IMG/VR virus record: IMGVR_UViG_3300009164_000167
Span: 1 to 38,390 of that record
Source of the DNA: a virus
Strand: one strand, 5' to 3'
DNA: 38,390 nucleotides
The notes under the pieces are model-generated. The model was not told where the DNA came from and did no database searches. It saw only the letters and a list, made by a program, of their open reading frames with translations. Positions 6,027 to 26,595 of the stretch are shown in pieces. Every line of letters starts with the position of its first letter. Positions within the stretch are counted from its first letter, which is position 1. The translations under genes and the position numbers were made by a program.

Positions 6027-7502
6027 TTATGTTCCGAATGAGCTTAAACTGCCAAAAACTGTCCAACTCGATGCTATTCTAGTAAATGTAAAACTAACAA
6101 TGTCTTTTTTGCTGGCGTTTCCGGATGGTGTTAATCCAGCTAGCCAATTAATAGTTACAGGTGTACCGTCTATCTGTAATACATTTGGAACATACGGGGT
6201 AGCTCCTTGTATTAATACAAGAACAATTGAGATAGCTCGACTAGCAGTGGTAGGCACATTGGTAAAATTAGCTGTGAAATTATCAGCTAAACTAGTATGA
6301 TACCAAATGGCTCCTGTAGAATAATCGTGATCAACAGTTCCTGTTGCCCCTGTTTTAGTATTCAATACTTCGACAGATTGTTGGAATGTAGAAGTTCCGG
6401 TAAATGTTGGACTAGTGAACATTGTAGCTTTTGATTCGTTAGTTACATTGCCTAATCCAACAGTTGAAGCATTTATTGAAAGTGCTTCAACAACCACTTG
6501 TTCAAGTGCTGTGCTAACATATGACTCTGTGGCTAATTTTTCGTTTCCGTATACAATATTGCCTGCAATAATTAAATCATTTTCAATGCGTATATCTGAA
6601 TTGAAAGTCACCGCAGGTGTAAATGATATCGAACTAGAGTCAACTGAATCTATAACTGTGCCAGTAAATGATATACTGCCTAAGCTAGGCATAGGCACAC
6701 TTGGCTGCATCCACTGTGTAGATGTACCGTCATCTATGTAAACATATAATCTACCATTGTCAGTATTAAGCCATAAATTTCCACTTATTGGATCTTCTGG
6801 TAGTGTATTGCCAACTGAAACTGTTGCACCACCTGCACCACTGCCTGGATCTGCTACGGCAATTTCTTCTCCCATAGCAAGGTGATTATAACACCAATAA
6901 TATAGTGTTGTTGGGGTAGCGTTAGTTACTGTAATCTGTACCGTACGAGTGTCGGCATTATCAAATGCCACACTGTTATAAGTTGCGTATGTTACAATTT
7001 CGCCATCTAATTTATATACTACATTTGAAGTATAGGCGGTACCGCCACCTCGAACACCGCTTAGATTATCTGATGAAAAATTCAATGGGTGTCTATTTTG
7101 TGTAGTGCCGTTGGCATTAGGCCAGTAGACATTGGTGTCATCGCTTTGATCAAATATATAGGTATAGCCGGTTACAAAATTTGGCTTGGGTCTGTACTCG
7201 CCATTTAATGCATATTTGTTTCCTGTATCAGGACTCTGTGGACCTACAATAGTTGTAGTATAGTAGACTGTGGCGGATCTGCTGATAATCAAAGCATCCC
7301 GCATAGATGCTGCTGACACCCCAATGAGGTCGTTTCGGGCTAACTTAATACCAGCAGTATCAGCACCGTTATAAATTCTAAGGGTATCGTTATCTTGATC
7401 ATAGAAAACTTCCCCTCGCGAACCTAGCTTTCTATTAAGGAAGTCTTCATCATTCGGTGTAAATCTTACTAAATTTACAACTGGATTTCTATTGGATGGC
7501 AT
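6027..7502 (-). CDS. Tail fibre protein with internal cupredoxin-like domain
   Basis: A 491-residue fibre protein. The N-terminus (VNLVRFTPNDEDFLNRKL, then RGEVFYDQDNDTLRIYNG at 29-46) is a plug motif frequent in T4-like marine phage fibres. Residues about 110-216 look like a cupredoxin: YTYIFDQSDDTNVYW, RHPL (His138), and LYYWCYNHLAMG giving Cys204, His207 and Met210. A second plug-like motif follows (G..LPEDPISGNLWLNTDNGRLYVY). The rest is Thr/Ser/Val-rich, as in trimeric fibre shafts, and ends in a compact beta domain (about 385-491). A CATAAATA late promoter motif is 25 bases upstream of the ATG, separating it from the accessory cassette. Confidence 0.75.
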   Translation of the reverse strand: MPSNRNPVVNLVRFTPNDEDFLNRKLGSRGEVFYDQDNDTLRIYNGADTAGIKLARNDLIGVSAASMRDALIISRSATVYYTTTIVGPQSPDTGNKYALNGEYRPKPNFVTGYTYIFDQSDDTNVYWPNANGTTQNRHPLNFSSDNLSGVRGGGTAYTSNVVYKLDGEIVTYATYNSVAFDNADTRTVQITVTNATPTTLYYWCYNHLAMGEEIAVADPGSGAGGATVSVGNTLPEDPISGNLWLNTDNGRLYVYIDDGTSTQWMQPSVPMPSLGSISFTGTVIDSVDSSSISFTPAVTFNSDIRIENDLIIAGNIVYGNEKLATESYVSTALEQVVVEALSINASTVGLGNVTNESKATMFTSPTFTGTSTFQQSVEVLNTKTGATGTVDHDYSTGAIWYHTSLADNFTANFTNVPTTASRAISIVLVLIQGATPYVPNVLQIDGTPVTINWLAGLTPSGNASKKDIVSFTFTRIASSWTVFGSLSSFGT

Positions 7503-7525: not shown

Positions 7526-7855
7526 CTATTTATGTTTCTGTTGTTCATTGTATTCTTTGATTGTTTGTTGTACTAGTTCAAAAGATCGGCCACTAAATCC
7601 GCCAACTCGCCAGTAATACGGAGCATAGTTTGTGGTTTTTTGACGATCGTCGTATACGATTGCCACAGTGCCGTCTTCATACCGCAGCCGCCACTGACAA
7701 GTGACTCTAGCTAACATTCCGTCCGTAGGTGGGTTGTCTTCTTCGCCGGGCCCGAAATAGGGGCGCCCAAATATCTTTTCAAGAGCTCGATATGTTGTGT
7801 ATATTTGCCCTTGCTCGGTAAATCTTGTAGTAAACGAAATCTTTGTAAATTTCAT
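7526..7855 (-). CDS. Conserved small phage protein of unknown function
   Basis: A 109-residue protein with a pattern I have seen in marine phage genomes: a short helix with FGRPYFGPGEED, a strand pair around W.LRYEDGTVAIVYDDR, and a WRVGGFSGRS motif before a C-terminal helix. No function is known to me for this family. Its start overlaps the previous stop by four bases (ATGA), so it is translationally coupled as the last gene of the cassette that begins at 12182. A late promoter motif for the following fibre gene overlaps its stop codon. Confidence 0.7.
   Translation of the reverse strand: MKFTKISFTTRFTEQGQIYTTYRALEKIFGRPYFGPGEEDNPPTDGMLARVTCQWRLRYEDGTVAIVYDDRQKTTNYAPYYWRVGGFSGRSFELVQQTIKEYNEQQKHK
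7527..7534 (-). promoter_or_regulatory. T4-type late promoter motif CATAAATA
   Basis: The - strand reads CATAAATA, overlapping the stop of the last cassette gene and 25 bases upstream of the ATG of the fibre gene at 6027-7502. It gives the downstream fibre genes a late start independent of the halogenase cassette. Confidence 0.6.
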
Positions 7856-8586
7856 TTTTTAAAATGCTTGTGATAGAAATCTTTTAGCAGATTTCTGTTC
7901 TGTCTAAAAAATACACTCATAAACAAGTTTCGTTTTTCTATCCACATTTTATCGTTATCGGACATTTCTCTTACAACTAAATCGTAGTTTTTTTCGGATA
8001 GTGGAATTAAATGTCCGATTGGCGTGCCTGCTTTGATAAGTGTTTCTCCTTGTAGTACATTCCAATGAATTTGTAAATTTATTTCTGTACTAACTGCAGG
8101 GTCTAAAATGCCTGCGGCATTTTCAAATGTAAATTCGTCGGGATATGCAATAGGCAACATTAAGAACTTTACACCCTTTGGTGCTATTATATTCCAAGGA
8201 GTATCTAATTTTATAACCTGTTGGTGACTCCAAGGACGCTTAGGGATAAATTTATCAAGACCGGGTTTATGCGTTCCCACAACTTCTTTTCCTCGATAGG
8301 AATTTAATGCTCCCGAAGGTATACTCCACGAAAATGGGCGGGTGGGTCCGTCTGTTCGAATTATTAGATCATGCCATAAAGGAATAATGTACCCGTGATT
8401 GAACATGTCAAATATTCCAGGACATTGAAATATATGTGTCTGTCGAGACTTAGTAAATTTATCTTTGTTGGCGACCCAGTCGTTCTTGGCCGCGGCCATC
8501 CAGTTAGCTCTATATTGGCTGGCTGGTATGATTGGAAATAGATCCGAAAGACCCGGTGCTGCTGTAAAAAATTCAATAGTGTCCAT
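7852..8586 (-). CDS. Unassigned protein of halogenase cassette, possibly DUF6065-like
   Basis: A 244-residue protein with a distinctive pattern: an N-terminal P.IPASQYRANWM, then CPGIFDMFNHGYIIPLW, SWSIPSG, a central DTPWNIIAPKGVKFLMLP, a GILDP turn, and a late TPIGHLIPL. The layout suggests a beta-rich, possibly jelly-roll domain. I tentatively relate it to the DUF6065-type proteins of phages and bacteria, from memory only. No catalytic residues can be named with confidence. It overlaps its upstream neighbour by 14 bases and its downstream neighbour by 4, and lies two genes after the halogenase, which suggests a shared pathway. Confidence 0.65.
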   Translation of the reverse strand: MDTIEFFTAAPGLSDLFPIIPASQYRANWMAAAKNDWVANKDKFTKSRQTHIFQCPGIFDMFNHGYIIPLWHDLIIRTDGPTRPFSWSIPSGALNSYRGKEVVGTHKPGLDKFIPKRPWSHQQVIKLDTPWNIIAPKGVKFLMLPIAYPDEFTFENAAGILDPAVSTEINLQIHWNVLQGETLIKAGTPIGHLIPLSEKNYDLVVREMSDNDKMWIEKRNLFMSVFFRQNRNLLKDFYHKHFKK

Positions 8587-8986
8587 ATGAATACCACTGT
8601 ACAGTTCTGCTAAGTTCTGTTATACCTTCTGCTTTGCACATAAATTTTGTAATGTCGTTGGCATGAATTGCTATTGCAAATGTACTTGGCAGCTCATAAC
8701 CCAATACATAATCTAAAACAAGATATGTCTGAGGACCAACTGTTTCCCAAGAAAGAGGTGCATCGGCAAATATTATATTATTAGTTTTTCTTGTTACCAC
8801 TGACATCTTTTCGTTGCCGTTTTCTTTATGAAATACTATAAGATCTCTATCTTCTAATAATGCATTCATCCAAGTTTTTAATTTCTTTTTGTCTTTTTGT
8901 ACTTTTCTAGCAGTGTAAGCATCTTTAGCTTGTCGTATTGTATTTGTATACAGTACATATTCGCCTAGTGTTGTCTCAGTTAACAT
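8573..8986 (-). CDS. Hypothetical protein in halogenase cassette
   Basis: A 137-residue protein that I do not recognise. It has a basic helical N-terminal half (a KKLKTWMNALLED segment around 35-47) and a beta-containing C-terminal half with FADAPLSWETVGPQTYLVLDY. The end is Tyr/His-rich. An AAGGA ribosome-binding site lies just before its ATG, nine bases after the halogenase stop, and its stop lies inside the next gene. It could be a partner or regulator of the halogenase system; nothing in the sequence decides this. Confidence 0.65.
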   Translation of the reverse strand: MLTETTLGEYVLYTNTIRQAKDAYTARKVQKDKKKLKTWMNALLEDRDLIVFHKENGNEKMSVVTRKTNNIIFADAPLSWETVGPQTYLVLDYVLGYELPSTFAIAIHANDITKFMCKAEGITELSRTVQWYSYGHY

Positions 8987-8995
8987 GTTAAATCC

Positions 8996-10510
8996 TTAAG
9001 AATTATTTTTATACCATTGATCTAAGTAAGCGTAATGATTCGGAAATCGTTTTTTTGCTTGCTCTACTCTATAGTTTTGAACATCAATAAAATATTCTGC
9101 ATATTCGTTTTCGTTTGGTCTGTCAATTTTTTCTAGATTGTCGTAGGCCCCGCCGGCATGTAACACACTGAACCACTGAACAATATTAAACATAGAGCTT
9201 TTACTAAAGTATAGGAATCTTCCCGGACGAGGATAGAAATGACCTAGTATGAATTGTACATCTTCAGGCAGATCTTTGATATCTTGTTGTCTAATGCTTT
9301 GCCAGAATGGTGTATCTGACCTCTTTGAGAAATGATAGTGCGCCCAAACAAATGCTAGAATTTCCATGTTCATTTCATAGAAGCCTCGATTAATTAAATC
9401 TTTGATTGGTTGATTCCATATATTTCTATTCATATTCAGCAAATCGGTTACTGATTTAATCACTGCGGTAGTAAAGGTGATACCTGTTGCTTCTAATGGC
9501 TCTACAAATCCTGCACTGAGTCCTACTGCTACCACATTCTTAACTGCAATTTCTTTATGATACCCGCACTTCATTTTTAAGAATTTTGCCGGGGCCTCAA
9601 ATTCTCCAATTGTTTCTCTTAGTTCTTTTTCAGCGTCTTCGTCGCTGATAAATTTACTGCTGTAAACATAGCCGTTGCCTGTTCTTGTATAGATAGGGAT
9701 AGTAAATCTCCATCCGGCAGTCATTGTAGTTGCTTTTGTATATGGGAAGCATTCAGTTTCCGGGTCTTTAAATTGCGTAGGCATTACTACAGCACGATCA
9801 TTAGGCAACCATTTATCGTAAGATGTAAATGCAACTCCTAGTGTTTTTTCCAATAGTATAGAATTGAATCCACTACAGTCAATATAAAGATCTGCAGAAT
9901 AACTCTGTCCGTTGTCGTCAATTAGTTTAGTGATGCCGTGTATGTCTTTTTCAACCTTGGCAATTCTAGTATCAATATGTTTGACCTTATTGCCTATCAG
10001 TTCTTTAAGAGCATCTAAAATTTCGTATGCAGAAAAATGTACGGCACCGTAGCCTTCGTTGTTTGCGCCAAAGCTAGTGTCTAAATGATCAAACATTTTT
10101 GGACTTAGGTTAGCCTTAGCTAGTTGATAGGCGGGATGAAACTTTGCAAATTCGCTATAGGGTTTTTTAATGAAATAGTCGCTGGTATATAAATCTTCAG
10201 CTATGAACGAACTTTGTAATCCGTCATTGTCTACAAAATAAGGCTCGTCGTTCCATCCGCTGAGTTCTACACCTAATTTAAATGCTGCATTACTGGGTTT
10301 CATCCATTGGGCCGGATTAAGTCCACATTGAAACAAGAACTGAGCTGTCAGTGGTTGTGTTCCTTCGCCGACTCCGATAGGGCCTAATGTAGTATCTTCA
10401 ATTAAAGTGATTTCACAGGGCACTTGTAAATTGTGTGTAAGGTATGCTGCTGACAGCCAACCACTTGTACCACCGCCAAATATAATTATTTTTTGTGTTC
10501 TATTAATCAT
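8996..10510 (-). CDS. Flavin-dependent tryptophan-type halogenase
   Basis: A 504-residue, apparently complete member of the PrnA/RebH-type FAD-dependent halogenases, which use reduced FAD, O2 and halide to make hypohalous acid that halogenates an aromatic substrate. Visible motifs: the FAD-binding GGGTSGW (12-18); GVGEGTQP (46-53); FKLG with Lys78 where PrnA has its essential Lys79; DCSGF (211-215); the WxWxIP-type motif as GWRFTIP (266-272, first Trp followed by Phe); GNGYVYSS (278-285); and GFVEPLEATGI (334-344) with Glu340 where PrnA has Glu346. Length is normal for the family (about 510-540). The start overlaps the upstream methyltransferase gene by 8 bases. A phage homologue, VirX1 of a cyanophage, is reported to iodinate diverse substrates. 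Substrate here is unknown; free Trp, a peptide or another aromatic are all possible. A separate flavin reductase would be needed, and none is seen here. Confidence 0.93.
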   Translation of the reverse strand: MINRTQKIIIFGGGTSGWLSAAYLTHNLQVPCEITLIEDTTLGPIGVGEGTQPLTAQFLFQCGLNPAQWMKPSNAAFKLGVELSGWNDEPYFVDNDGLQSSFIAEDLYTSDYFIKKPYSEFAKFHPAYQLAKANLSPKMFDHLDTSFGANNEGYGAVHFSAYEILDALKELIGNKVKHIDTRIAKVEKDIHGITKLIDDNGQSYSADLYIDCSGFNSILLEKTLGVAFTSYDKWLPNDRAVVMPTQFKDPETECFPYTKATTMTAGWRFTIPIYTRTGNGYVYSSKFISDEDAEKELRETIGEFEAPAKFLKMKCGYHKEIAVKNVVAVGLSAGFVEPLEATGITFTTAVIKSVTDLLNMNRNIWNQPIKDLINRGFYEMNMEILAFVWAHYHFSKRSDTPFWQSIRQQDIKDLPEDVQFILGHFYPRPGRFLYFSKSSMFNIVQWFSVLHAGGAYDNLEKIDRPNENEYAEYFIDVQNYRVEQAKKRFPNHYAYLDQWYKNNS

Positions 10511-12182
10511 TTTTTCTAATTACAACAATGTATAGCCCATTCCACCATTCGTTTGGGCTTTCTAGGGAGTTCAACATCATCTTTTCAAAAGTAACTCGAG
10601 CGCCTACACTGTTAATGCCGGCCTGCGCACCTTCAACAACTGATTGCCAATTTGCATCATCAAATACAATAATACACTCATTGGCTAGAATTGGATAGTA
10701 ATGCTCAACCGCTCGCTTTGTACTTTCAAAATCATGAGGGCCGTCATAAAAAAACATCTCAATGTTGGATGAGAATTGAGAAACATCTGCTTTAAATAAG
10801 TCGCCGTTTAAAATATCTACTTCAGCTAGTCCTTTATGCTTCTTAACATTTTCAATAAATGTTTGAACATTGTTCCTAGGAAGCTGATTTAAATCATTTC
10901 TTGCAGGTTGAATTTGTTCTTTCCAATTGTCAACAGCAATTGCATGTATTGGATTGCCTTTAATAGCGGCACAAAAGGTTGCACCCATTGCGGCGCCCAC
11001 TTCTAAATAGGTGTTTACACCCTTAGCTAGAGAATTTAACAGCGTCTGTACTCTAGGACTGGTAAGACCGGGGATATCTAATCGCATTGTTGGTATTCCG
11101 GAATCTGAAATACATTGTGCTGTATGTTGAACTAATTCAGAATATACCAACTTGGATTTTTTATCGTAAATTTTATCGCAGTATTGGCATGACCAACATT
11201 CGAACTGACAAGTTTTAATTTTTTCACGCCAAATGTTTATTGGCTTTTCTGTTAGGTTTGTTTCTTCTAGATAATTTTCGAATCCTTGAAACAATATGTC
11301 TTTGCCTTCTGCATAGTTTTTAATAATGTCCATAGTTTCATACAGACGAGTGATTGCTTCACGGCCATGCATTTTGATACTATCAATGCCTAGCTCGTCG
11401 ATAAATTGATCCCAGTCTGCTCTCCATGGCGGAAAGTTTGCAGTTTTTAAAAATATTGCAGGGTCTTCAACTTCCCATTTTTTACAACTGGTTCTGCTAA
11501 TAGCATCGTTGAAGTATTGCGGCGTATCCCCGGATCGATTGTTATTGAATTGAAAATGCTCAACCATCATGCTGCAACCACCTACACATCCTTCGTTACC
11601 TAATAGGCTAATTGCAATATCTCTGCCTGTGGTTTCTTTGATGTATGCTTTTGCTTTTTTAATTGTTCGAAGGAGGACATGATCTCGCATCATGTCTCTA
11701 TCAAGATTAATATAATCAAACCCGTAATTAGCAAGATTAACTACTTCCTGTGCAGTGTGTACTTCACGAAGTATGGTATTTTTTACATACAACTCAGGAA
11801 AGGCAGCTTTGATCTGGCCAGTTGCCATCCAATGTGTGTGCGGAATTGTAGCACTACGGATCCCTGCATCATACAATGGTTTAAAATTTTTAATAAACAA
11901 ATCTAAATTTTGTTGTGTGGCAGGGATTTCGATATTATTAAATGTTGCGCTTACTGAAATTCCTAGGGTTTTTTGTATATTCAATGCTGCTTCAATAGCA
12001 CTGAAGTGATACTCCTCTAGTAGAAATACATCTCCCATAGCATCTTGCACAAAAGGTTTGATGCGAGATGTAAAATACACATCTCTAATATAATCTTTGT
12101 ATTGTGAAAGAAAACTAAGGAACTCTGAGTACTGCTCTGGATTTAGTTTGGGATTAAGTGGTACGCTGAATATTTTTCGCAT
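10503..12182 (-). CDS. Fusion: U32/UbiU-V-like domain, Cys cluster and class I SAM methyltransferase
   Basis: A 559-residue two-domain protein. Residues about 1-240 resemble the peptidase U32 TIM barrel (which includes UbiU/UbiV O2-independent hydroxylases and RlhA): alternating strands and helices with AGIRSATIPHTHW, FPELYVKNTILREVHTAQEV, FDYINLDRDMM and the glycine/cysteine turn NEGCVGGCSMMVEH. Cys199, Cys203 and Cys233, plus C-x3-C-x2-C-x2-C at 325-335, could hold an Fe-S cluster as in UbiU/V or bind zinc. Residues about 385-559 are a Methyltransf_24-like SAM methyltransferase: LEVGAAMG (393-400) is motif I, AVDNW (416-420) the acidic loop, FFYDGPHDF (477-485), and IVFDDANW (505-512). It is the first gene after a sigma70-like promoter and overlaps the halogenase start. 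I cannot name the substrate, and I do not know this fusion as a described enzyme. Confidence 0.8.
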   Translation of the reverse strand: MRKIFSVPLNPKLNPEQYSEFLSFLSQYKDYIRDVYFTSRIKPFVQDAMGDVFLLEEYHFSAIEAALNIQKTLGISVSATFNNIEIPATQQNLDLFIKNFKPLYDAGIRSATIPHTHWMATGQIKAAFPELYVKNTILREVHTAQEVVNLANYGFDYINLDRDMMRDHVLLRTIKKAKAYIKETTGRDIAISLLGNEGCVGGCSMMVEHFQFNNNRSGDTPQYFNDAISRTSCKKWEVEDPAIFLKTANFPPWRADWDQFIDELGIDSIKMHGREAITRLYETMDIIKNYAEGKDILFQGFENYLEETNLTEKPINIWREKIKTCQFECWSCQYCDKIYDKKSKLVYSELVQHTAQCISDSGIPTMRLDIPGLTSPRVQTLLNSLAKGVNTYLEVGAAMGATFCAAIKGNPIHAIAVDNWKEQIQPARNDLNQLPRNNVQTFIENVKKHKGLAEVDILNGDLFKADVSQFSSNIEMFFYDGPHDFESTKRAVEHYYPILANECIIVFDDANWQSVVEGAQAGINSVGARVTFEKMMLNSLESPNEWWNGLYIVVIRKND

Positions 12183-12192
12183 AGTCGTAAAT

Positions 12193-12223
12193 AAAGGTGT
12201 ATACTACTTAGTATAACACCTTT
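12193..12223 (-). promoter_or_regulatory. Palindrome/hairpin overlapping the cassette promoter
   Basis: A perfect inverted repeat TATACTA-AG-TAGTATA (12200-12215) covers the -10 box, and outer arms extend it (AAAGGTGT against ACACCTTT, with one unpaired base) to 12193-12223. It could be an operator for a repressor, or an RNA hairpin acting as terminator or stability element for the gene at 12246-12791, although the downstream T-run is short. Both uses fit the position. Confidence 0.6.
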
Positions 12224-12238
12224 AGTTGGACTTCGCAA
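12210..12238 (-). promoter_or_regulatory. Sigma70-like promoter of the halogenase cassette
   Basis: The - strand has TTGCGA (12233-12238; four of six matches to the -35 consensus), an exact 17-base spacer, and TATACT (12210-12215; five of six matches to the -10 consensus). The predicted start of transcription is near 12203, about 20 bases before the ATG of the fusion methyltransferase gene. No T4-type late motif is found in this gap, unlike at the other gene groups, so this cassette may be read by host RNA polymerase without the late sigma factor. Confidence 0.55.
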
Positions 12239-13627: not shown

Positions 13628-13635
13628 TATTTATA
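13628..13635 (-). promoter_or_regulatory. T4-type late promoter, perfect TATAAATA
   Basis: An exact match to the T4 late promoter core on the - strand, with AAAGGA and the ATG of 12760-13605 about 23 bases downstream. It lies in the 35-base gap after the fibre-tip gene. The strongest late promoter candidate in the window. Confidence 0.75.
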
Positions 13636-13640
13636 AAGGG

Positions 13641-14678
13641 TCATGGACGCCATGACATAGTTCCGGAACTGTTACCACTTTTGCCTTTTGGTTCCATTGA
13701 GCTTGACCCAACAAATCCTCCCCAAGTTGCAAATTGAACTTTGTAGGTTGTATTAACGTGACTTCCGTTGTAAAAACCTTGGCAATATCCCCAATCTCTT
13801 GCACTGACCATATTTTCTTCACCGCTATATGCAGGTTTAGCACCTATAGCATTATAGCTGGCATTGTTTTGATAGTTAGTAATACGCCAATTGGTGCTTG
13901 GATTACCTTCGCGGCCTGCAATGGTTGTTGCCTGTCTAGTCTGTATGTTATGTTGATAAGGATCTCCGGCTATTGCAGTAGATGCTGAACGATCATATGG
14001 TGTTCTTGTGGCAAAATTGAAAATTCTTTCTGTACCACCATAAAAAATACCAAAGTGTTCAGTCCAAGCACCCCAACTGGTGGTGTTGTTACCTGTGCCG
14101 TAGGTTGTGCCCAGTGTTTGAGTAGTCAAGTTGAATTCGTAAATTTGTCCGCTGAGGTAGCTTGACGGTGCAATATAGGCAAAATAGTGTTCTTGTTGAA
14201 TAGTACCAGTGTTAATAGTACTGCCTGGCATGTTGCGAGTATATCCTGTAGTAATCGATACTTCAGTGACCATGTCAAAACAGATGATATTGCTGGCTGC
14301 AACACAGTGAGAACCGCTGGCACCCCATGTATAGTTTCTTGTTAGACTAAATCCGCTGCTTTGATAGTTGTGTCCAGCTTCTTGATTATCACCAAGGTTA
14401 ACAGATGTGTCTGTGGCGAATGTTAATCTGTTGGTATTATTCCATACAACGCTGGCAGCATAACCACCGTGTAGATATCCGGCAACCTGAACATCTCGTG
14501 CTTGGAAAGGTATGCCTACAAACTCCCAGCTGCTGTTTATTGAGCCACCGTAACTTTCAATCATGTTACTTCTAGGATTAAATCTAAGTTGTCCAGCTGT
14601 ACCGCTAGTAGAATTATCTGACGGTAGCTGTAAAAAGCCTGTTGAATTTATTGATGAGTTAGCTGCTAAAATTGCCAT
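13641..14678 (-). CDS. Fibre/adhesin tip protein, paralogue of the glycine-rich adhesin
   Basis: A 345-residue fibre-tip protein. The start is the ATG at 14678 (MAILAANSSINSTGFLQLP), because it matches the N-termini of the two neighbouring fibre genes and sits in a TAATG overlap with the upstream stop; a longer reading frame upstream lies in the other gene. Residues 1-45 are the shared plug (LQLPSDNSTSGTAGQLRFNP). From about 65 to the end the protein is a paralogue of the C-terminal half of its upstream neighbour, with GYLHGGY, WNNTNRL, DTSVNLGD, EHYF, GEEN and a terminal GSSSMEPKGKSG. The repeated GY..GG and W-turns suggest a beta-propeller-like or galactose-oxidase-like fold; this is inference. 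A receptor-binding role is likely. Confidence 0.75.
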   Translation of the reverse strand: MAILAANSSINSTGFLQLPSDNSTSGTAGQLRFNPRSNMIESYGGSINSSWEFVGIPFQARDVQVAGYLHGGYAASVVWNNTNRLTFATDTSVNLGDNQEAGHNYQSSGFSLTRNYTWGASGSHCVAASNIICFDMVTEVSITTGYTRNMPGSTINTGTIQQEHYFAYIAPSSYLSGQIYEFNLTTQTLGTTYGTGNNTTSWGAWTEHFGIFYGGTERIFNFATRTPYDRSASTAIAGDPYQHNIQTRQATTIAGREGNPSTNWRITNYQNNASYNAIGAKPAYSGEENMVSARDWGYCQGFYNGSHVNTTYKVQFATWGGFVGSSSMEPKGKSGNSSGTMSWRP

Positions 14679-16567
14679 TATGATCTCCAGAAGCAAACGC
14701 CAGAACTTGAGCCGGCATGCCCTTTTGGCTCCATGCTGCTGCTGCCAGCAAAACCAGATTCGGTTGAATAATAGAACTTCCAACTATTGTTGTTTTGAGC
14801 GCCATTATATTCGCCTAGTAGGTATTGCCAGTCTTGCCCTAAGCTATAGTTTTCTTCTCCGTTGTTGGTTCTAGGTTTGGCCACAGTACCGCTACTTGTT
14901 CTAGTATACATATTGGTTCTACGAAGATTGTATCCACCGTTATAGCTGCCTTCGTTACCTGCATAGTTATTTGAGTATTTACTTTGTACAGATTTCTGTT
15001 GATGGTATGCACTAGGCTGTCCGCCAAATTGTGCTGTAACTGTTCTTGCAGCATAGTGGAAGTTTCTTGAATCTTCTTCCCAATACCAAGTACCGTAGGT
15101 TTCGTGACTCATACCCCATTGACCTGTAGAGGAAAAGCCGCCTGCTGGGGAAGTTTGTTTGACTTCGTTGGTCAAATTGTATTCTTCAATTTCAGCTGCC
15201 CCGCCGCCCGAAGTGAAAGAAAAATAATGTTCGTTGAATATTGTACCAGAGTTGTATCTATTGTTGGTCAACGCAGTAATCGGCGGATTATATGCAGTTT
15301 CAGTTCGCATGTTAAACCCTTGTACATAATTACTTGCTACCGCATGGCCGTTTCCGCTGCCCCATATGTAGCCAATGTTTAGACCGCAGGAGCCGCTTTG
15401 ATAGTTAAAGGTTCTTGCAATTGCGCCGTCGCCTAGGTTAACCGATACATCTGTTGAATGATAAATTCTATTAACGTTGTTCCACGGACTTGAATCTTTA
15501 TATCCACCGGCCATATAACCAGTGGTAATAACTGTTCTGTATGGGAATGGCATCGACAAGTTCAACCAGCGGCCTTCACCGCGATAGAACTCAAGTCCTT
15601 TTTGTGTGTTTAAGCGGATTGCGCCTTGTCTTAGGTTAACTGCGTCGCCTGTAGTGTATCTAATGATAATAACACCACTGCCGCCCGCGCCACCATAACT
15701 AGGTGATCCACCACCGTTGCCACCGCCACCTCCACCGCCACCGCTGTTTGCTCGTGCAGTTTGATGTGCTGCTAGTGTTGTTGACGGGCCATTGCCGTCA
15801 CCACCGCCACCGATACCACCAAATCCCGGACGGGCATCACTGCTACTTCCGTGGATGCCACCACCACCACCACCACCATAAAAGGTCATTGTGCCGGAAA
15901 TGTTAAATCCTAGTCCAGGACCACCGTCTCCACTTTTACCATTTTGACCCCAAGGCCCTGTGGTAAGTTCCCCACTTCCTGCTTCACGCCAATTACCGCC
16001 GGGGCCGCCTGCACCACCGCCACCACCTGTTGGGTAGCCGTTAGTGCTATCACCTCGTCCTGTACCGCCTCGAAATCCCTGTCCAGCTGTGCCGGCTGCG
16101 CCAACCGTTGAATATCCGTTACCACCGCCACTAGCTCCTGTTGTTGCAGGATATGTGTCCCAGCTGCCGCCACGGCCGCCACCTAGTGCTGTAATAGCAC
16201 CAAAGGTTGATGCACCACCGTTGGTTGCTCTAGGCATCCCACTGTAGCCTCCCGGATTATATTCACCAGTTCCGCCTACACCTACTGTATATGCTATGGT
16301 GCTGCCTGCTGTAACCGCGTAGCCTTCACGATAAAGAACGCCACCACCACCACCACCACCACCTACCCAGCAGCCACCACCACCACCACCACCAACTACA
16401 AGTACATCGACTTGTGTAACGCCTGCTGGAACTGTCCAGTTACCGCTGCCTGTTGCGGTCAACGATACTACAGTCCAAGCTGGCTCTGTTGGGCGGGCGG
16501 CACTGGTTCCAACTGGTAGTTGTAGATAACCAGTTCCTCCAATTGTTGTACTTTGTAAAATCGCCAT
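14678..16567 (-). CDS. Glycine-rich adhesin/fibre tip protein
   Basis: A 629-residue protein in three parts: a short plug (MAILQSTTIGGTGYLQLP), a glycine-rich domain (about 30-310) with many Gly runs of 6-9 and the flanking strands WTVPAGVTQVDVLVVGGG and GSGVIIIRY, and a C-terminal domain (about 315-629) paralogous to the protein at 13641-14678. The glycine-rich architecture resembles known Gly-rich domains of phage adhesins, including the polyglycine stacks of T-even-like gp38 tips, although it is not the same protein. It probably contacts host surface receptors. The coding strand contains several (GGT)n tracts. Its stop overlaps the next start by one base. Confidence 0.8.
   Translation of the reverse strand: MAILQSTTIGGTGYLQLPVGTSAARPTEPAWTVVSLTATGSGNWTVPAGVTQVDVLVVGGGGGGGCWVGGGGGGGGVLYREGYAVTAGSTIAYTVGVGGTGEYNPGGYSGMPRATNGGASTFGAITALGGGRGGSWDTYPATTGASGGGNGYSTVGAAGTAGQGFRGGTGRGDSTNGYPTGGGGGAGGPGGNWREAGSGELTTGPWGQNGKSGDGGPGLGFNISGTMTFYGGGGGGGIHGSSSDARPGFGGIGGGGDGNGPSTTLAAHQTARANSGGGGGGGGNGGGSPSYGGAGGSGVIIIRYTTGDAVNLRQGAIRLNTQKGLEFYRGEGRWLNLSMPFPYRTVITTGYMAGGYKDSSPWNNVNRIYHSTDVSVNLGDGAIARTFNYQSGSCGLNIGYIWGSGNGHAVASNYVQGFNMRTETAYNPPITALTNNRYNSGTIFNEHYFSFTSGGGAAEIEEYNLTNEVKQTSPAGGFSSTGQWGMSHETYGTWYWEEDSRNFHYAARTVTAQFGGQPSAYHQQKSVQSKYSNNYAGNEGSYNGGYNLRRTNMYTRTSSGTVAKPRTNNGEENYSLGQDWQYLLGEYNGAQNNNSWKFYYSTESGFAGSSSMEPKGHAGSSSGVCFWRS
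16341..16393 (-). repeat. (GGT)n trinucleotide tracts in adhesin gene
   Basis: Two uninterrupted tracts, 16341-16363 and 16374-16393, encode the Gly runs of the adhesin. A third, shorter tract lies at 15858-15879. Each is a multiple of three in repeat unit, so slippage would change Gly number without breaking the frame. Confidence 0.85.
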
Positions 16568-18681: not shown

Positions 18682-21600
18682 TTAGTTTAAGAAATAGCTT
18701 AATGCAAGTGGCGAGCCAGTTAGGCCGCCGGTGAAGTTTACTGTTGCATTAAAGTTGATAGTTCCACCTGTCACGTTAGTAATTTGGTTTGTTCCTATCA
18801 AAATGTCGCCAGCTGTTACGCTGTTAACAATCAAGCTCGCACCGCCGCCGCCAATTTGGCTTGCAATGTAGGCTTTAATAGCTCGTTGTGTCGGTACTAC
18901 CGAATCGCTGTCCGCTGTAAAGAACGGATCTGTTGAGAATTCAGTAATCGCTGCACTTGCTCCGCCTAGTGACAAGTTGCCCAAGCTAAGTTCTTGCAGT
19001 CCTGAAATATTAAATGCATCAGCATTCAATGTAGCAATACCAGTTGACTGTTCAATAGTAAACAAGTCGCCGACTCGGAAGTTACCGTCTTGGTCCGTTG
19101 ATGTAAAGAACACTCGTCCACCGTTGCTTTCAACTGCCTCGTTTGCCTGGACTGGGGCCTGCGTAGGATGGTCAGGGTAATTTGTTGTCCCAACTCCGCC
19201 TGTCCCAATGTCTAAGAAGTCGTGTCCAGTTAATCGAACTTGACTGTATCGAATTCTAGTTGTGATTGCTGTTCCATTTGCAAGATTGTCTGAAACTTTT
19301 AGAATTGGACTTACTTGGAAGAACGCAGTATATGCACCGTCGTATTCGCCTCTAAAGCTGACCACGCTAACAACTTTGTAGGTTATATCGCTGCCTGCAA
19401 ATACCAAGTTAGCACCAGGTGCTGGTCTTGAACTAATTCTTCTAACAGCAACATATGCACCGTCTTGGAAGAAGTCAGCATAGCCGTCTCCTGTATCAAT
19501 TTCAGCACTACATGTTTGATACCCAGTACCACGGTTAACAAACGATGGGTTAGCCAATACTCCGTCACCTAATCTTACTGTGGTTGGTGCTTCATAGATG
19601 TTGTTAGGGTCTGTGATTGTAATTGTTGGTGCGCTGGCGTAACCAGATCCTGGTTCAACAATACGAATTATTGCAATTTTCTCACTTGAAACATATGCAC
19701 GAGCCTTTGTTGTAGCGCCACAGAATACTTGACCTGCTACAGTACCAGTACCGGCACCAACAGCAGCAAATGATCCTATTCGCTGCGGGTTACCATGCGT
19801 AATGGCAGCAAATCCGCTTGCGGCTGCGCCTGTGGTTCTTGAAGTCCAATGTACACCGTCTGGGCTGCTTGCAGCCTGTGTAGTTGTACTAACTGCGTAG
19901 AACATACCTTGACCGTAGGCAATTTTTGTCCAAGTTGCAGAAGCTGGCAATGTACTTGCAGTCCAACTAGTTCCGTTTAAGCTGTAGGCTGCTACTGTAG
20001 ATCCTGCGGTGTTGGAAATTGCTACGAATCTACCATTGCCCCATGATACAGCATTCCATGCACTGCTACTTGGCAATGTTCTAGAAATCCATGTAACACC
20101 ATCAACTGAACTTGCGGCTGCTGTTCCGCCTGACTTAACAGCAACAAACAATCCCATACCGTAGGTAATTGCAGTGAATCCTGTTGCAGGTAATGCACCT
20201 GTTAGATCCCAGGTTTCGCCGTCTAAGCTGATTCTAACAGTGGTAGTGTCGCTGGCAATTGCTACAAATCTGCCTTCACCGTAGGCCACATCAACCCAGG
20301 TCGCGCTGGTTACCATAGTTGATGATGACCATGTTATACCGTCTTCAGAATATGCACCAGTTGTATTTGCACTAGTTCCTGCTACTGCAACAAATCTAGT
20401 ACTGCGATTTACAGACGATCCATCTTCAAACTGTCCAAATGCCAGGGCCTTCCATGCTGCTCCGCTTGGCATCAAACTAGTTCTTGTGGTCCAACTTGTT
20501 CCATCTTCACTGGTTGCTCCAATAATGCTACCGCTTCTTACGGCAACAAATCTACCGCCGAGTCCGTAACCTTCAAAATCAACTGCTTGAATTGCTCCAG
20601 TTACTGAGTTTACGCTGGTTATTGTAACTGTGATATTGTTGGTCGGTGCTAGGCCTCCAACACTTGTACCAAGAATTGTAATAGTTTCAAGTCTTGTGTA
20701 ACCAGTTCCACCGGCCTGTACTGTTACTTGATATTTGCTACCGTTTCTAACCACCATAAAACTAGCACTTAGACCAGCTCCAGAATAGGTTCCAGTAACG
20801 CTGGTATAGGTAGTTGCAGTGTTTCCGTATGCAACGGCTGTCCATGCACCGCTGGTTGGCAATGTTGTAGCTGCCGCAGAGTATGTAGGGCTTGTAAAAC
20901 TGATTCTTGGTTCAATTAAGTATGAACTTGAAGAGTCAGGAGAAACAATTGTTGTTCCAGGTACTTGGTGATCCCAACCACCTGCACCTGTTGTTTCTTT
21001 AATTACTGCTGCAATTTTAGTACCAGCATCGTAGGTGTTGATAATTGCATATTGACCAATACCATTACCTGAAGTGATATGCAGTACCATTCCAATATAA
21101 GCTGTGCTTAGTTGGTTGTCGGTGGCTGACAGTGTAATAGTAGTAGAAGATCCGTTTTGCGCAGTACCTGTATTTGTTACATAACCAAAGCCACCTTGAT
21201 TTCCGTCAGCTTCGGGCGCTGCTGTACTATCATCAACGTTGTCAATCATACGCACTTGATATACCGCATCGTCACGGAATTCATCTTGATAAGCTATGGC
21301 GTTGTTACCTGGGCCAATCAATAACCAAGCTGCTTCAGTATATTCGTTACCAGCATGGTCAAATTCGTATCTATAAATTGCATCACTGTCGGTGGTCACT
21401 GTACCAACTACTGATTTGTATTGATATCTATTGTCAACAATCGCTGTCTTGGTTGTTTCAGTTGCGTCAAAACCTTCTGCTACAGATCCAAAGTCACCAT
21501 AACTGTTGTTGCCGTTGGTACCACGAATACGACCACCGTTTTCTGACAGGTAACCAATGTGTGAATAATACGAGAATACCGAAACAAGTTCTGCTCTAGC

Positions 21601-24600
21601 ATTATTTGTAACCCATGCGCCAATACCATCACTGATCAATTGTGTGAAGTCGTTGGATACAAAGGACTTGTTACCACCATTGTGTAAAGAGCCGTCGATC
21701 TTTTGACCAATCGCAGCATTACCAAATGTAGCACAGTTCTGAATGTATGGTGAACGAGCAGTAATCCATGTGCGGAAGTCTGCTGGGCCCCAACCTGGAT
21801 CCAAACTTGCATATGCTCCTGAGGTTACACGACTTGTACCGTATGCGTTAGGAGGTGTTAGATCTCCTTCTAGACCTCGCAATGTCATATTACGAAGACC
21901 AGTGCCGTTGCGTAGATAGTACATGTCTTCTTCTTGACTGCCTGTTACTGCATTTGCATAGTATCGTGCAACAAACATAGATTTGTAATTTGAAGTGTAT
22001 TTTAAATCCCACTTCAATGCGTCAATGTATGTTCCAACATCTCTTGCACACAATTCAGTATTATAATACAATGCCACAGTCATTGAACCGCTAGCATTAG
22101 CTGAAATATCTAATGCTGTTGCAGTGTTTCGTGTAGTTGCAATTTTGAATGTTGTAGAACTCACAACATCTTGTATATAGTATGTTGTTCCAGCAGTTAC
22201 GCCACCAAATGTTGTTCCAGTAAATCTTACAGCAACATTTCTCTTCATCCAACTTGTATCGCTGCAAGTGAATACATCAGTTGCGGCTGTGGCTGCTGTA
22301 ACTGTATCGGTATATGTGTCTGCAATGTATGCACTAACTTCAGCAACAATAAAATCTCTGTTGCGTTCTAGTTGTAGTGCAGCATAGTCTTTGTTTCTTT
22401 CAACAGTTTGACACATGTCACCTTCTCTACTTCCACTGTAGACAATAGCGTAGACATCGTCCATTAGAGTATTGATTCTAGCAATAGCTGTTGCATTACT
22501 TCCAACATTGGCAATTGCTTGAGTGCGTGTATATTCTAATGATGCAAGAGTCACTTGTTTGATAATTGTTGATTGATCAAACAACTCAGAAGCAGTTAGT
22601 CTTAGGTAGGCATGCGCTGCTTTAATTGATTGATAATTTGTGTTGAACATGAAGTCATATCCAACTGCTTTCAATACAATTGTTGCATCTCTTTCTGCTT
22701 TAGCATGATTGTAAGTAAAATCGCTGTAGTTGTCAGAGATATATTGTAGCGTATCCTTAACAATATCAGTTTTGTCAGTTGCAAGAGTACCTAGAGCTGT
22801 TTGAATACCAGCTGATGCCCAAGTAATGCTTGGAAGGCTTTCTGCAACTAATCCACTTAGGTTACCTGCTGTGGCCACTGTGGAAATATTGCCGCACAAT
22901 GTTGTCATGCGTGTTGCCTCAGTAGCACTTGCTGCTGTACCGCTGGTATCTTGACCAGCATAAGTTTCACGAACAATCTGCGCTGTGATTACACCTAGTT
23001 GTGTGTAAGTAGTTCCGCTGTTAACTGATTCAATTCCAACGCCTGTGATGTTATTGAACAATGAGCGACAGAAGTTACGGGTAGCAATGTTGCCACCGTA
23101 GTTAACATCGTAGGCCAATGCATCAATTGCGTAGCCTAGGTCACGCTGGCAAAGTAATTTTTTAGCTGCTGATAGGGCAACATATCCAGGAACGTTAGCA
23201 GTTAGCCATGTTACCATAGTACTGATAATGAATGCACGGTTGGTAACCAATTGTGCTCTAGCGTTGGTAAAGTTAGCTGTGCCTGTACTGGTGTAGACTA
23301 ATGCATCAGCATTGGCTACTCCGTTTTCGATGATATCAACAATTTCAACATAAGCAGCGTTGGCTCTTGATACTGCTGTTGCATCGCTGGCCACTGATGC
23401 AGCTACTCGACCTTTAATATAATTAATTGAACCAATCTCTTGGTCAAGTTGGTTAGCTGTTACTTCACCTGCTTGACTGCGTAGATAAGACAGTCCGTTT
23501 TGCACTGCCCAGAAGTTAGAGCCAAACGCTGCATCGTAGTATGCTGCATCTACCAAGTAACCACTGTCTCTGCGGCAAAATGCACTATTGTATCTAAAGC
23601 TGCCAAAGTTTGTATTTAGATAGTCAACAACATTGGTAACTATAGTTTCGTTGGCTGAACTCAATGTACTATATGCACTGATTAGTGCAGTTGTAGAGTT
23701 AACACCGTTTGCGGGAGTTGGATCAGTTAATGTAACTGTGGTTCCTACAGCAGAAGGTCCAGTATTAATAATAGTAATAATTTCGTCTAGTCTTGCGCCA
23801 ACAAATGTTGCTGTTCCAGCTGCACCTGCTGTTCCTCTAAATTGAACTACTGTTGTTTGAAGAGGAGTTACTGGTGTATTAACCGCAATGGCCTGCAGTC
23901 TATCTTTCAAGAATGCTAGTGCTGCCAGTGTAGGTGCTTTAATAGAAGTTGGTAATTGTGGTTGTGTATTGTCATCACCGTCATAATAAGCAAGACCGGC
24001 TTTAACGCTTAATGCATTTCCGCCATAGGTCAAGTCATAGATTACTGCATCTACGATATATCCAGCATCTCTTCGAGTTTTTACTTTACCATAACTCAAA
24101 GTAGGATAAGTTGCCACCATGTAAGCAACAACTTCTTCTTGGAAAAACTTTTTGTTTTCTTTGATTAGTTTTCTAGCATTACCGTAACCTGCTAGATAGC
24201 TGACATTGTATCCAGTTGGGTCAGTTAAACTGGCAAGATGCATAGTACCTAGTTTAAAATCTGCCTGTTGCTTCATTAGCTTGACTAGTCTTCCAGTTAC
24301 AGTAGCTTGTGTAGCATCAGAGAACGGAGCATTAATGCTTTGGTCTAGACTATTTCCGGTAGTTCGAGTAATTGTAGTTCCTGTAACAATGTCTTCAACA
24401 ATTGATTGAACATGATTGAAAGTGTCAACAGTATAGTATGCATCGGATATGTCAATTAAGCTGCCTGCTGCGGAAACTGTTACTGCTCGTTTTTCGTCGC
24501 CTAGTACACAAACATCAGTTGGAACAATCATTGGCAATGTTTCAGAATAAGATCCTGTTTTAACATTCAACAAGGATGCTGGTACAGTACGATCCGGTAG

Positions 24601-26595
24601 ATTAGTTGTATTGCCATCTGTTAGTGCAGTTGTTACTATGCCAACTAAATCCGTAATAGTTGCTAGAACTCCTGTTTCTGCAACTAAGTCAGCGTCAATG
24701 AATTGAGGAACAATAGCAGTAGAATTATCGCCGTTTAATACTTGATAGTTTACCTGTGGTGCTTGGTTATTTAGAACATTTCCAATCACGGTTAACATGT
24801 AATTGTAGGCTGCTACATCTTCATCTTTTTGTTCTGCAAGGCGTGAGTATGTGCCGGTACCGTTTTCGTCAAAGGCTGTGGCAAATAGTATACCGCCATC
24901 TAAGGCATTAATGTATGATAATGCTGCTGCAAGAGTTTTTAAATTTCCACCGTGGCCGATATCGTGTATGATTCTGTCAACAACAAATCCTACATCGCGC
25001 TCGCATTTAAATTCGTCATAGACAAAAGAAGTAGTAAATGGCGATGCATTAGAAATTATCTGTCTTGCAATCCATTCTGTTACTTCTCGTTGAATGAATA
25101 CGCGATTCATTTCTAGTAGGCGCTGAGCGGCAGGGTTGCGAGGACCTTTTTCGATTTGCTCTAAGGCATAACGAACAGTCTTCCATGGCTTGTCTGAAGT
25201 TCTTCCGTGGATTGGAGCTGGTAAATCAACTCCGTGATTGCCAACATAATAATTTTGATCAACAACTCCTAGATAATCCCAGTCAGGATTGCCACTGGAA
25301 GTAACTTTTAGAACCTGTCCTTCAATACCAATTGGCAGTCTTGCAGGGCCTTGATCACCGTTATAATAGACCATATCACCTGGATTGGTCATAACAGCAT
25401 ATTCATTACCTACATTAAAGATATTCCAATAAACACCTTCGGTGTCTCCTGAAGGGCTGCGGGTTGAATCTGTAAATGTTGTGCTGTCGTCATCGTTGCT
25501 GGTATGGTTCTGAACGCAGATGTAGACGTTGGACATGTATCTAACTGCGTCGCCTAGATAATAAGCGGTACTGTTTGCCCATTCACCTTTCCAAAGAACA
25601 CCACTGTTTAATCTTGTCCAGTAGGTTGCACTAGGCGGAGTTTGTCCACTGTGGTCTAATATGCATAGATAGGTATAGCCGTTTAATCTAACAACTTCAC
25701 CTACTTTATAAGATGTTGCATTGCTCCAGTCAGTTGTAAAGCTAAATCCTTTGCTGAATAAATCCCAGTTTGCAGTAGATGTAGATGGAACTGCGGCAAG
25801 ATTGACTGTGGTTGCAACATATTGGTTACCACCGTAGCGTACAATATCGCCTGGCTGGTATGATGTTGCACTGCTCCAAGTATTTTCAAATTGCAGGCCT
25901 TCAACAAAAGAAGACCAATTGTTAATATCTACACCAAAGTTCGATGTAGAAGTATGTAATAGAGTACAGATGTATAATGTTCCGCCATACTTAACAACAT
26001 CGTTAACACGATAGCGTGTTAGAGCTGTCCAGGCATCGCGATATTCAATACCGCGATTGAATACATCCCATTTTCCTAGGTCAGTTTCTAGACCCAGCGA
26101 AATAGACGCTGCTGAAGTGTGGTAAGTGTTACAGATATAGTTGATACCACCATACTTAACAACATCATTAACTTTGTAGCGAGTAGACACAGTCCATGTG
26201 CCTTTCCAATCAATACCGTCGGCAACATTATCCCACTTAGAAAGTGTGCTGTCTGCTAGATTTAGATCTGCTTCCAAGCCTGATGCTAAGGTTGCTGCGG
26301 ATGTGTGAGGAATACGGCAAACATATAAGCGGCCACCGTACTTGACCATGTCGTTGGTCTTATAAGTTGTGCCAACTGCCCAGTCGTTTTCCCATGTAAA
26401 GCCGTCGCTTAGTTGATTCCACTTAGAAGGAATTGCATCTAAGTCTGTGTAGAAGTCGGCAGATGCTGCGTGACCTGTAATACAGATAAACACTTTACCG
26501 CCATACTTGACAACGTCATCTTTGTAGTATGTGGTGCCAGTCGCCCAGTCACTTTTCCATACAAATCTAATTCTACCTAATTTAAATTCTGCCAT
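18682..26595 (-). CDS. Giant tail structural protein with W-repeats, six RD repeats and Asp-box propeller
   Basis: A 2637-residue protein, a paralogue of the adjacent 1816-aa protein. Residues 1-410 hold seven repeats of about 50-60 aa (W...T.Y...D.V.YGG..Y.C...H), similar in look to CBM5/12 carbohydrate-binding modules. At about 468 a pectate-lyase-like beta-helix start (KPWKTVRYALEQ) is followed by long insertions. The RD repeat (C.RD.GY.vDA..YD..yGgN) occurs six times, near residues 531, 841, 1007, 1149, 1299 and 1516. About 1610-1700 is the strongly conserved SLHNGGNKS..SNDFTQ..SDG segment. Six Asp-box-like turns (S.DG..W) at about 2029-2251 suggest a propeller. About 2490-2520 carries FTSTDQDGNFRVGDLF, a hallmark of T4-like marine phage tail proteins. 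A late promoter motif lies 29 bases upstream. Probably a large tail or baseplate-attached fibre. Confidence 0.85.
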   Translation of the reverse strand: MAEFKLGRIRFVWKSDWATGTTYYKDDVVKYGGKVFICITGHAASADFYTDLDAIPSKWNQLSDGFTWENDWAVGTTYKTNDMVKYGGRLYVCRIPHTSAATLASGLEADLNLADSTLSKWDNVADGIDWKGTWTVSTRYKVNDVVKYGGINYICNTYHTSAASISLGLETDLGKWDVFNRGIEYRDAWTALTRYRVNDVVKYGGTLYICTLLHTSTSNFGVDINNWSSFVEGLQFENTWSSATSYQPGDIVRYGGNQYVATTVNLAAVPSTSTANWDLFSKGFSFTTDWSNATSYKVGEVVRLNGYTYLCILDHSGQTPPSATYWTRLNSGVLWKGEWANSTAYYLGDAVRYMSNVYICVQNHTSNDDDSTTFTDSTRSPSGDTEGVYWNIFNVGNEYAVMTNPGDMVYYNGDQGPARLPIGIEGQVLKVTSSGNPDWDYLGVVDQNYYVGNHGVDLPAPIHGRTSDKPWKTVRYALEQIEKGPRNPAAQRLLEMNRVFIQREVTEWIARQIISNASPFTTSFVYDEFKCERDVGFVVDRIIHDIGHGGNLKTLAAALSYINALDGGILFATAFDENGTGTYSRLAEQKDEDVAAYNYMLTVIGNVLNNQAPQVNYQVLNGDNSTAIVPQFIDADLVAETGVLATITDLVGIVTTALTDGNTTNLPDRTVPASLLNVKTGSYSETLPMIVPTDVCVLGDEKRAVTVSAAGSLIDISDAYYTVDTFNHVQSIVEDIVTGTTITRTTGNSLDQSINAPFSDATQATVTGRLVKLMKQQADFKLGTMHLASLTDPTGYNVSYLAGYGNARKLIKENKKFFQEEVVAYMVATYPTLSYGKVKTRRDAGYIVDAVIYDLTYGGNALSVKAGLAYYDGDDNTQPQLPTSIKAPTLAALAFLKDRLQAIAVNTPVTPLQTTVVQFRGTAGAAGTATFVGARLDEIITIINTGPSAVGTTVTLTDPTPANGVNSTTALISAYSTLSSANETIVTNVVDYLNTNFGSFRYNSAFCRRDSGYLVDAAYYDAAFGSNFWAVQNGLSYLRSQAGEVTANQLDQEIGSINYIKGRVAASVASDATAVSRANAAYVEIVDIIENGVANADALVYTSTGTANFTNARAQLVTNRAFIISTMVTWLTANVPGYVALSAAKKLLCQRDLGYAIDALAYDVNYGGNIATRNFCRSLFNNITGVGIESVNSGTTYTQLGVITAQIVRETYAGQDTSGTAASATEATRMTTLCGNISTVATAGNLSGLVAESLPSITWASAGIQTALGTLATDKTDIVKDTLQYISDNYSDFTYNHAKAERDATIVLKAVGYDFMFNTNYQSIKAAHAYLRLTASELFDQSTIIKQVTLASLEYTRTQAIANVGSNATAIARINTLMDDVYAIVYSGSREGDMCQTVERNKDYAALQLERNRDFIVAEVSAYIADTYTDTVTAATAATDVFTCSDTSWMKRNVAVRFTGTTFGGVTAGTTYYIQDVVSSTTFKIATTRNTATALDISANASGSMTVALYYNTELCARDVGTYIDALKWDLKYTSNYKSMFVARYYANAVTGSQEEDMYYLRNGTGLRNMTLRGLEGDLTPPNAYGTSRVTSGAYASLDPGWGPADFRTWITARSPYIQNCATFGNAAIGQKIDGSLHNGGNKSFVSNDFTQLISDGIGAWVTNNARAELVSVFSYYSHIGYLSENGGRIRGTNGNNSYGDFGSVAEGFDATETTKTAIVDNRYQYKSVVGTVTTDSDAIYRYEFDHAGNEYTEAAWLLIGPGNNAIAYQDEFRDDAVYQVRMIDNVDDSTAAPEADGNQGGFGYVTNTGTAQNGSSTTITLSATDNQLSTAYIGMVLHITSGNGIGQYAIINTYDAGTKIAAVIKETTGAGGWDHQVPGTTIVSPDSSSSYLIEPRISFTSPTYSAAATTLPTSGAWTAVAYGNTATTYTSVTGTYSGAGLSASFMVVRNGSKYQVTVQAGGTGYTRLETITILGTSVGGLAPTNNITVTITSVNSVTGAIQAVDFEGYGLGGRFVAVRSGSIIGATSEDGTSWTTRTSLMPSGAAWKALAFGQFEDGSSVNRSTRFVAVAGTSANTTGAYSEDGITWSSSTMVTSATWVDVAYGEGRFVAIASDTTTVRISLDGETWDLTGALPATGFTAITYGMGLFVAVKSGGTAAASSVDGVTWISRTLPSSSAWNAVSWGNGRFVAISNTAGSTVAAYSLNGTSWTASTLPASATWTKIAYGQGMFYAVSTTTQAASSPDGVHWTSRTTGAAASGFAAITHGNPQRIGSFAAVGAGTGTVAGQVFCGATTKARAYVSSEKIAIIRIVEPGSGYASAPTITITDPNNIYEAPTTVRLGDGVLANPSFVNRGTGYQTCSAEIDTGDGYADFFQDGAYVAVRRISSRPAPGANLVFAGSDITYKVVSVVSFRGEYDGAYTAFFQVSPILKVSDNLANGTAITTRIRYSQVRLTGHDFLDIGTGGVGTTNYPDHPTQAPVQANEAVESNGGRVFFTSTDQDGNFRVGDLFTIEQSTGIATLNADAFNISGLQELSLGNLSLGGASAAITEFSTDPFFTADSDSVVPTQRAIKAYIASQIGGGGASLIVNSVTAGDILIGTNQITNVTGGTINFNATVNFTGGLTGSPLALSYFLN

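Follow-up and report, generated by a model that had tools for sequence, protein, structure and literature searches.

We describe here a linked set of genes in the virus record IMGVR_UViG_3300009164_000167 of IMG/VR, whose 38,390 bases are the window analysed throughout. Five open reading frames (ORFs), labelled A to E in 5' to 3' order on the - strand, run contiguously from position 12182 to 7526 within the tail-fibre region of a marine T4-like phage. Three of them, coding for a methyltransferase joined to a predicted barrel domain (A), a flavin-dependent halogenase (B) and a protein with a distant dUTPase-like fold (D), form a core that occurs in 18 of the 21 distinct uncultured lineages with a close B homologue, often together with C and with 2-oxoglutarate (2OG)-Fe(II) oxygenases. 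As far as can be read from its sequence, the cassette carries a promoter unlike those of the late genes on either side. It appears to be an autonomous unit in the manner of a moron, an operon for tailoring enzymes set among late fibre genes. A first-pass annotation of this DNA had proposed a linked, virus-encoded modification cassette, and our results support that proposal, with at least three of the five genes found together in 20 of the 24 distinct lineages surveyed.

Results

The relatives were collected by scanning IMG/VR with B, which gave 35 loci, and with D, which gave 8 loci, 5 of these on contigs already found with B; near-identical contigs were then collapsed into 24 lineages, 21 of them with a close B homologue (L-numbers below denote loci or lineages of relatives). 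In 20 of these 21, A precedes B on the same strand, a linkage that extends down to about 55% identity, and D is present in 18 of the 20 A-B lineages. C was found in 18 lineages and E in 3 only. Gene order is conserved among the A-B-D lineages, and the cassette adjoins fibre genes throughout their clade. The gap between A and B falls into two classes, of about 0-45 and about 600 bases; the gene sampled from the longer gap is a 2OG-Fe(II) oxygenase, and further 2OG oxygenases lie between B and D. The window cassette is without these oxygenases of its relatives, and PF13759 found no match in the overlapping 68.6-kb sister record of the window. Pairwise protein distances of B and D are correlated at 0.96; the corresponding value for B with up_281, a gene flanking the cassette, is 0.89.

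Among cultured phages the genes are arranged differently. A was found in 123 phage records, mostly without B, at 40-44% identity among the matches listed. In P-HM2, Syn33 and S-CAM4 it follows homologues of the window's fibre-region genes with no halogenase, and in S-RIM14 it lies away from the fibres, near plastocyanin and gnd. The gene after A in S-CAM4 (L050:7703-8413) codes for a DUF6445 protein (E 3e-12) and is a candidate partner. D occurs in 14 phage records, all 14 of which also carry a halogenase, and in the five regions that were read (Syn10, S-RIM44, P-TIM40, S-CREM1 and Sf-FP1) it directly follows a halogenase and A is absent; in the window, C separates B from D. The biochemically characterised halogenase VirX1 (PDB 6QGM, full-length match) is the Syn10 gene immediately before the D homologue, and Syn9 likewise has two halogenases and D. 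All five halogenase-D pairs come after fibre or likely fibre genes and are followed by a run of genes that includes 2OG oxygenases, which in S-CREM1 comes after a collagen-like gene. Halogenases also occur at other sites, among recombination genes in S-B64 and between terminase genes in HTVC008M.

These records bear on the possibility that no joint pathway exists, and that separate accessory genes have gathered at a tolerated insertion site under one shared promoter. T4-like phages are known to have hyperplastic regions between their structural modules (PMC2984593), in the cultured phages A is mostly found without B and the B-D pair without A, three lineages (L042-L044) carry A and D but show no B on the stretch examined, and E is confined to its three lineages. 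The A-B linkage, which holds in 20 of 21 lineages and to about 55% identity, the conserved order, the B-D distance correlation and the single conserved promoter described below all argue for a joint unit, and we consider an assembly of unrelated genes unlikely. The idea of the five genes as one set is accordingly narrowed: the A-B-D core is linked, but E does not belong to it in most lineages, and A and B-D part company in cultured cyanophages. Separate, unlinked homologues in related phages, which the first-pass annotation had named as evidence against a pathway, were in this way found in part.

A sigma70-type promoter lies upstream of A at 12210-12238 (- strand), with TTGCGA (12238-12233) and TATACT (12215-12210) separated by 17 bases and an extended -10 TG. 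The 110 bases upstream of A were scored at 23 loci, among which a few are near-duplicates. A score of at least 10 was reached at 16 of the 23, against 4.5% of dinucleotide shuffles; the scoring rule was devised after the pattern had been seen, and the contrast with other gene starts is the fairer control. That score was reached at 1 of 21 starts of up_281, 2 of 19 of B, 0 of 17 of D and 1 of 15 of the downstream fibre gene. Versions in relatives range up to a perfect TTGACA-N17-TATAAT (L011), and the sigma70-like promoter that had been noticed earlier is thus conserved. Its -10 box overlaps a terminator-like hairpin at 12192-12224 (- strand; fold -16.7 kcal/mol, z -4.33), which has a weak T-run in the window. 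The first-pass annotation had not mentioned this structure. In many lineages a similar hairpin lies across the promoter, with a T-run after it in several. We considered whether the promoter might be a spurious by-product of the 12224-12192 palindrome and rejected this, since the -35/-10 pair is kept in L014 and L017 without a strong hairpin. The hairpin would stop read-through from upstream only, because the transcript of the cassette would start inside it.

The flanking structural genes appear to be served by promoters of another kind, as had been suggested. Late-promoter-like motifs were found on the - strand at 13628-13635 (TATAAATA), ahead of the upstream late gene starting at 13605, and at 7527-7534 (CATAAATA), ahead of the downstream fibre gene starting at 7502, where the motif overlaps the stop codon of E. 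Among the relatives, ATAAATA, the late motif of T4 type, stands ahead of the downstream fibre gene at 12 of 15 loci, ahead of up_281 at 8 of 21, and ahead of A, B or D at none. With 1 occurrence in the window where 3.6 are expected, TATAAATA is no more frequent than by chance, so the late-promoter assignment rests on position and conservation. E is followed after 23 bases by the next gene; this interval holds the late-promoter motif, and no hairpin or terminator was evident in it.

B (8996-10510, - strand, 504 residues, phrog_2928) matches the Pfam family Trp_halogenase (PF04820) over most of its length (residues 7-454, E 6.4e-96). The GxGxxG motif for flavin adenine dinucleotide is present as GGGTSG at residues 12-17, and the catalytic Lys78 and Glu340 are kept, the latter within LEATG. 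At the WxWxIP site B reads WRFTIP, the second Trp being replaced by Phe as in most close relatives; Trp is retained in L008, L029 and L031. B looks like an intact halogenase, in agreement with its earlier identification. Its alignments to several tryptophan halogenases of solved structure, PyrH and RebH among them, stop around residues 413-429. The region where those enzymes bind free tryptophan is thereby left unaligned, and the acceptor of B is probably not free Trp. A search of an antiphage library with the cassette gave a single weak, chance-like match, to B. L009 (9965-11149) and L031 (4514-5710) have another, divergent halogenase adjoining the cassette; it shares about 21-22% identity with B, and these tandem halogenases echo those of Syn10, S-RIM44 and P-TIM40. 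In L029 (7995-12191) a halogenase 55% identical to B adjoins a DNA polymerase. Its surroundings include cytidylyltransferase and heptose adenylyltransferase-like genes, and no homologue of A, C, D or E was detected on the stretch examined.

A (10503-12182, - strand, 559 residues, phrog_1458) had been described as a fusion of U32 and methyltransferase domains, and only the second half of that description stood. The C-terminal domain is Methyltransf_24 (Pfam E 1e-10), a profile matched by 16 of 16 family members, and its S-adenosylmethionine motif ExGxxxGAT and the stretch DGPHD...DD are conserved across the family. Structural matches of this domain include small-molecule O-methyltransferases (MycF, SafC) and RNA-modifying enzymes. 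The N-terminal domain is predicted by AlphaFold2 to be an eight-stranded beta/alpha barrel (predicted local distance difference test, pLDDT, 75; low in the Cys loops). Seven cysteines (C199, C203, C233, C325, C329, C332 and C335) are invariant in the whole family, including cultured cyanophage members at 41-45% identity, and lie in low-confidence regions of the model. A TIM barrel bearing Fe-S cysteines is a mark of U32 proteins, and these residues are candidates for that role. No U32 match was found with Pfam (0 of 16 members) or NCBIfam. Membership of the peptidase U32 family is not supported either by hhalign, which gave a probability of 9% against the Escherichia coli proteins UbiU, UbiV, RlhA and TrhP, with an alignment that misses the Cys motifs. 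Bacterial relatives of A were likewise set aside; they amount to three contigs labelled as bacterial or archaeal metagenome-assembled genomes, possibly phage contamination.

D (7852-8586, - strand, 244 residues, phrog_7084) gave a structure model (pLDDT 84) that matches dUTPases in the PDB (Foldseek E 5e-4; distant, with low TM-scores) and, at a similar level, dUTPases in a viral structure library, which points to a distant relation to this beta-clip fold. The Pfam dUTPase family is reached by 2 of 18 members of the D family (best E 3e-4), and the family profile finds dUTPase weakly; kinship with DUF6065 is a weak hint only (E 0.08). No part of this profile was conserved strongly enough to serve for scanning genomes. 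Inspection of the sequences found neither the Ser-rich phosphate motif nor the C-terminal glycine-rich motif of dUTPases. dUTPase activity is unlikely, because only the motif-III-like GILDP and the motif-IV-like AGTPLAQLIP remain. Three of the five proteins had originally been left unassigned, and this holds for C (8573-8986, - strand, 137 residues), which is conserved near B, and E (7526-7855, - strand, 109 residues), neither of which matched any characterised family in Pfam, PHROG or NCBIfam searches; it does not hold for D, whose family pairs with VirX1-type halogenases.

The fold of D, together with the RNA-modifying enzymes among the structural matches of A, could be taken to mean that the cassette hydroxylates, halogenates and methylates nucleotides or RNA, with D binding a nucleotide. 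Against this stand the dUTPase motifs missing from D, the failure of A to match the U32 RNA hydroxylases, and the fact that no DNA-modification genes were recognised in the cassette or adjoining it. We regard nucleic-acid modification as very improbable.

Discussion

The reading that we favour is that the cassette modifies a large acceptor made by the phage. Transcription by host RNA polymerase would start from the sigma70 promoter of the cassette, either ahead of late fibre expression or independent of it. B would use reduced flavin, oxygen and halide to form hypohalous acid, which Lys78 and Glu340 would steer onto an aromatic ring of the acceptor. In relatives the 2OG-Fe(II) oxygenases would hydroxylate this acceptor too, and the methyltransferase domain of A would methylate the acceptor, perhaps where the barrel domain has introduced or uncovered a suitable group. 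D, with a dUTPase fold but no phosphate-binding catalytic motif, may assist the halogenase as a binding partner or scaffold. Only tailoring enzymes are identifiable, and domain searches found no scaffold-building enzyme in the window cassette or in its Syn10 version; the acceptor is therefore likely to be ready-made. It would most likely be a polypeptide that the phage itself produces, with the adjacent fibre proteins as prime candidates. A polypeptide is favoured because of the position beside fibre genes, the pairing with VirX1 and the S-CREM1 oxygenase run after a collagen-like gene. Fibre polypeptides are our leading guess for the substrate, a tentative one to which we give somewhat less than an even chance.

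Several observations speak against fibres as the target. The early-type promoter sets the cassette apart from late fibre expression, another phage has a halogenase 55% identical to B next to its DNA polymerase, and the halogenases of S-B64 and HTVC008M are at non-fibre sites. Tryptophan content of the adjacent fibres is not clearly higher with a halogenase (1.9%) than without (1.7%). The position of the cassette is in itself weak evidence, because other phages carry genes of sugar and carbon metabolism at the fibre-neck junction. Finally, a small-molecule or capsule function has been predicted for a similar gene cluster in S-SSM6a (PMC7824862).

That prediction leads to the alternative of an auxiliary metabolic module that halogenates, methylates and hydroxylates a small molecule or surface glycan of host or phage (a signal, a toxin or a capsule decoration) and has nothing to do with fibres. 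The S-SSM6a-type cluster combines halogenase, 2OG oxygenase, carbamoyltransferase and sugar genes, and its copy in S-SSM7 (L065:6001-13206) lies just before the neck gene gp13, at the same fibre-neck junction as the halogenase-D loci of several cyanophages. The early-type promoter and the structural resemblance of A's methyltransferase domain to MycF and SafC also fit such a module. However, the window cassette has no scaffold-building, sugar or carbamoyl transfer enzyme, and fibre adjacency is conserved across the A-B-D clade; we see this alternative as possible, though on the unlikely side. Genes of S-SSM7 (L065:5450-6004) and Syn33 (L052:7695-8195) that are annotated as denV (DNA endonuclease V, T4-GC 100) have Pfam matches to 2OG-Fe(II) oxygenases (5e-9 for the first, a weak 0.0015 for the second) and none to an endonuclease, and the label is probably a propagated misannotation.

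Comparison with known systems helps to place the cassette. Cyanophage halogenases, VirX1 and a halogenase/2OG cluster of marine T4-like phages (PMC7824862) are already known. For the A-B-D operon, its promoter, the D-VirX1 pairing and the dUTPase-like fold of D our searches of the open-access literature found no description, which does not prove that there is none. The suggestion that the set is not a described system therefore holds for the operon, but not for halogenase/2OG clusters as such. The cluster of the jumbo cyanophages S-SSM6a and S-SSM7 resembles the cassette in having a halogenase and a 2OG oxygenase in a variable region, and differs in its carbamoyltransferases and sugar enzymes, where the window has A, C, D and E with a conserved sigma70 promoter. 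The VirX1 locus of Syn10 shares the Pfam family, the catalytic residues, a D homologue directly downstream, the location after fibre genes and nearby 2OG oxygenases; unlike the window, it has two halogenases (VirX1 is about 31% identical to B) and no A, and it has only about 17 bases upstream of the first halogenase, which therefore has no dedicated promoter of the window's kind. The cyanophage phrog_1458 proteins (T4-GC 354) have the two domains of A at 41-45% identity and follow homologous fibre-region genes in P-HM2 and Syn33, but have neither B nor D in their vicinity. In tailed phages, morons are autonomously transcribed accessory genes, and the cassette resembles them in having its own sigma70 promoter and a terminator-like hairpin between co-oriented late genes, but no terminator was found at its 3' end and its third-position guanine-cytosine (GC) content resembles that of the rest of the genome.

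VirX1 has been described with a large, accessible active site (PMC8407142), and a review leaves the natural substrate of viral halogenases, including VirX1, blank. In its full form, our reading would have enzymes made early from the dedicated promoter halogenate, hydroxylate and methylate the phage's own receptor-binding fibres once the late genes switch on, with VirX1 part of the same system. We put forward this complete version as a speculation that is rather unlikely to hold in every part. If true, it would give VirX1 its missing natural substrate, and it would be a virion protein modification of which, to our knowledge, there is no report. The VirX1 locus shares with a conserved operon the constant partner D, and in one clade that operon has a defined promoter, which makes the question of its substrate specific and testable. 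Fibre hydroxylation, a halogenase-SapC operon and Syn9 transcription timing yielded nothing usable in the open-access literature.

Genomic setting

The genes around the cassette have matches in T4-type families for the tail sheath stabiliser and virion structural proteins and in many families of tail fibres. Within it, neighbouring ORFs overlap by 4-14 bases or sit 9 apart, so the layout of five overlapping or nearly touching - strand genes in a fibre region was as first reported. GC content is 37.6% in the cassette and 41.8% in the flanks; at third positions the main genes differ little in GC, and by this measure the cassette is not a recent arrival. The window contains no tRNA genes. A cyanobacterial host for the clade was considered and not adopted, as no psbA-family gene was found in ten related contigs (one of 245 kb), which may be incomplete. 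The phrog_1417 fibre paralogues (13641-14783 and 14678-16567 in the window; L003-L044) have C-termini of the GxSSGxxxWR type in most of the clade; the terminal Trp is absent from the homologues in P-HM2, Syn33 and S-CAM4, which have no halogenase adjacent, a difference confounded by phylogeny. Two giant ORFs occupy the fibre region at 18682-26595 (2637 residues) and 26641-32091 (1816 residues), and a late-type motif, AATAAATA, lies directly upstream of the larger one (start 26595).

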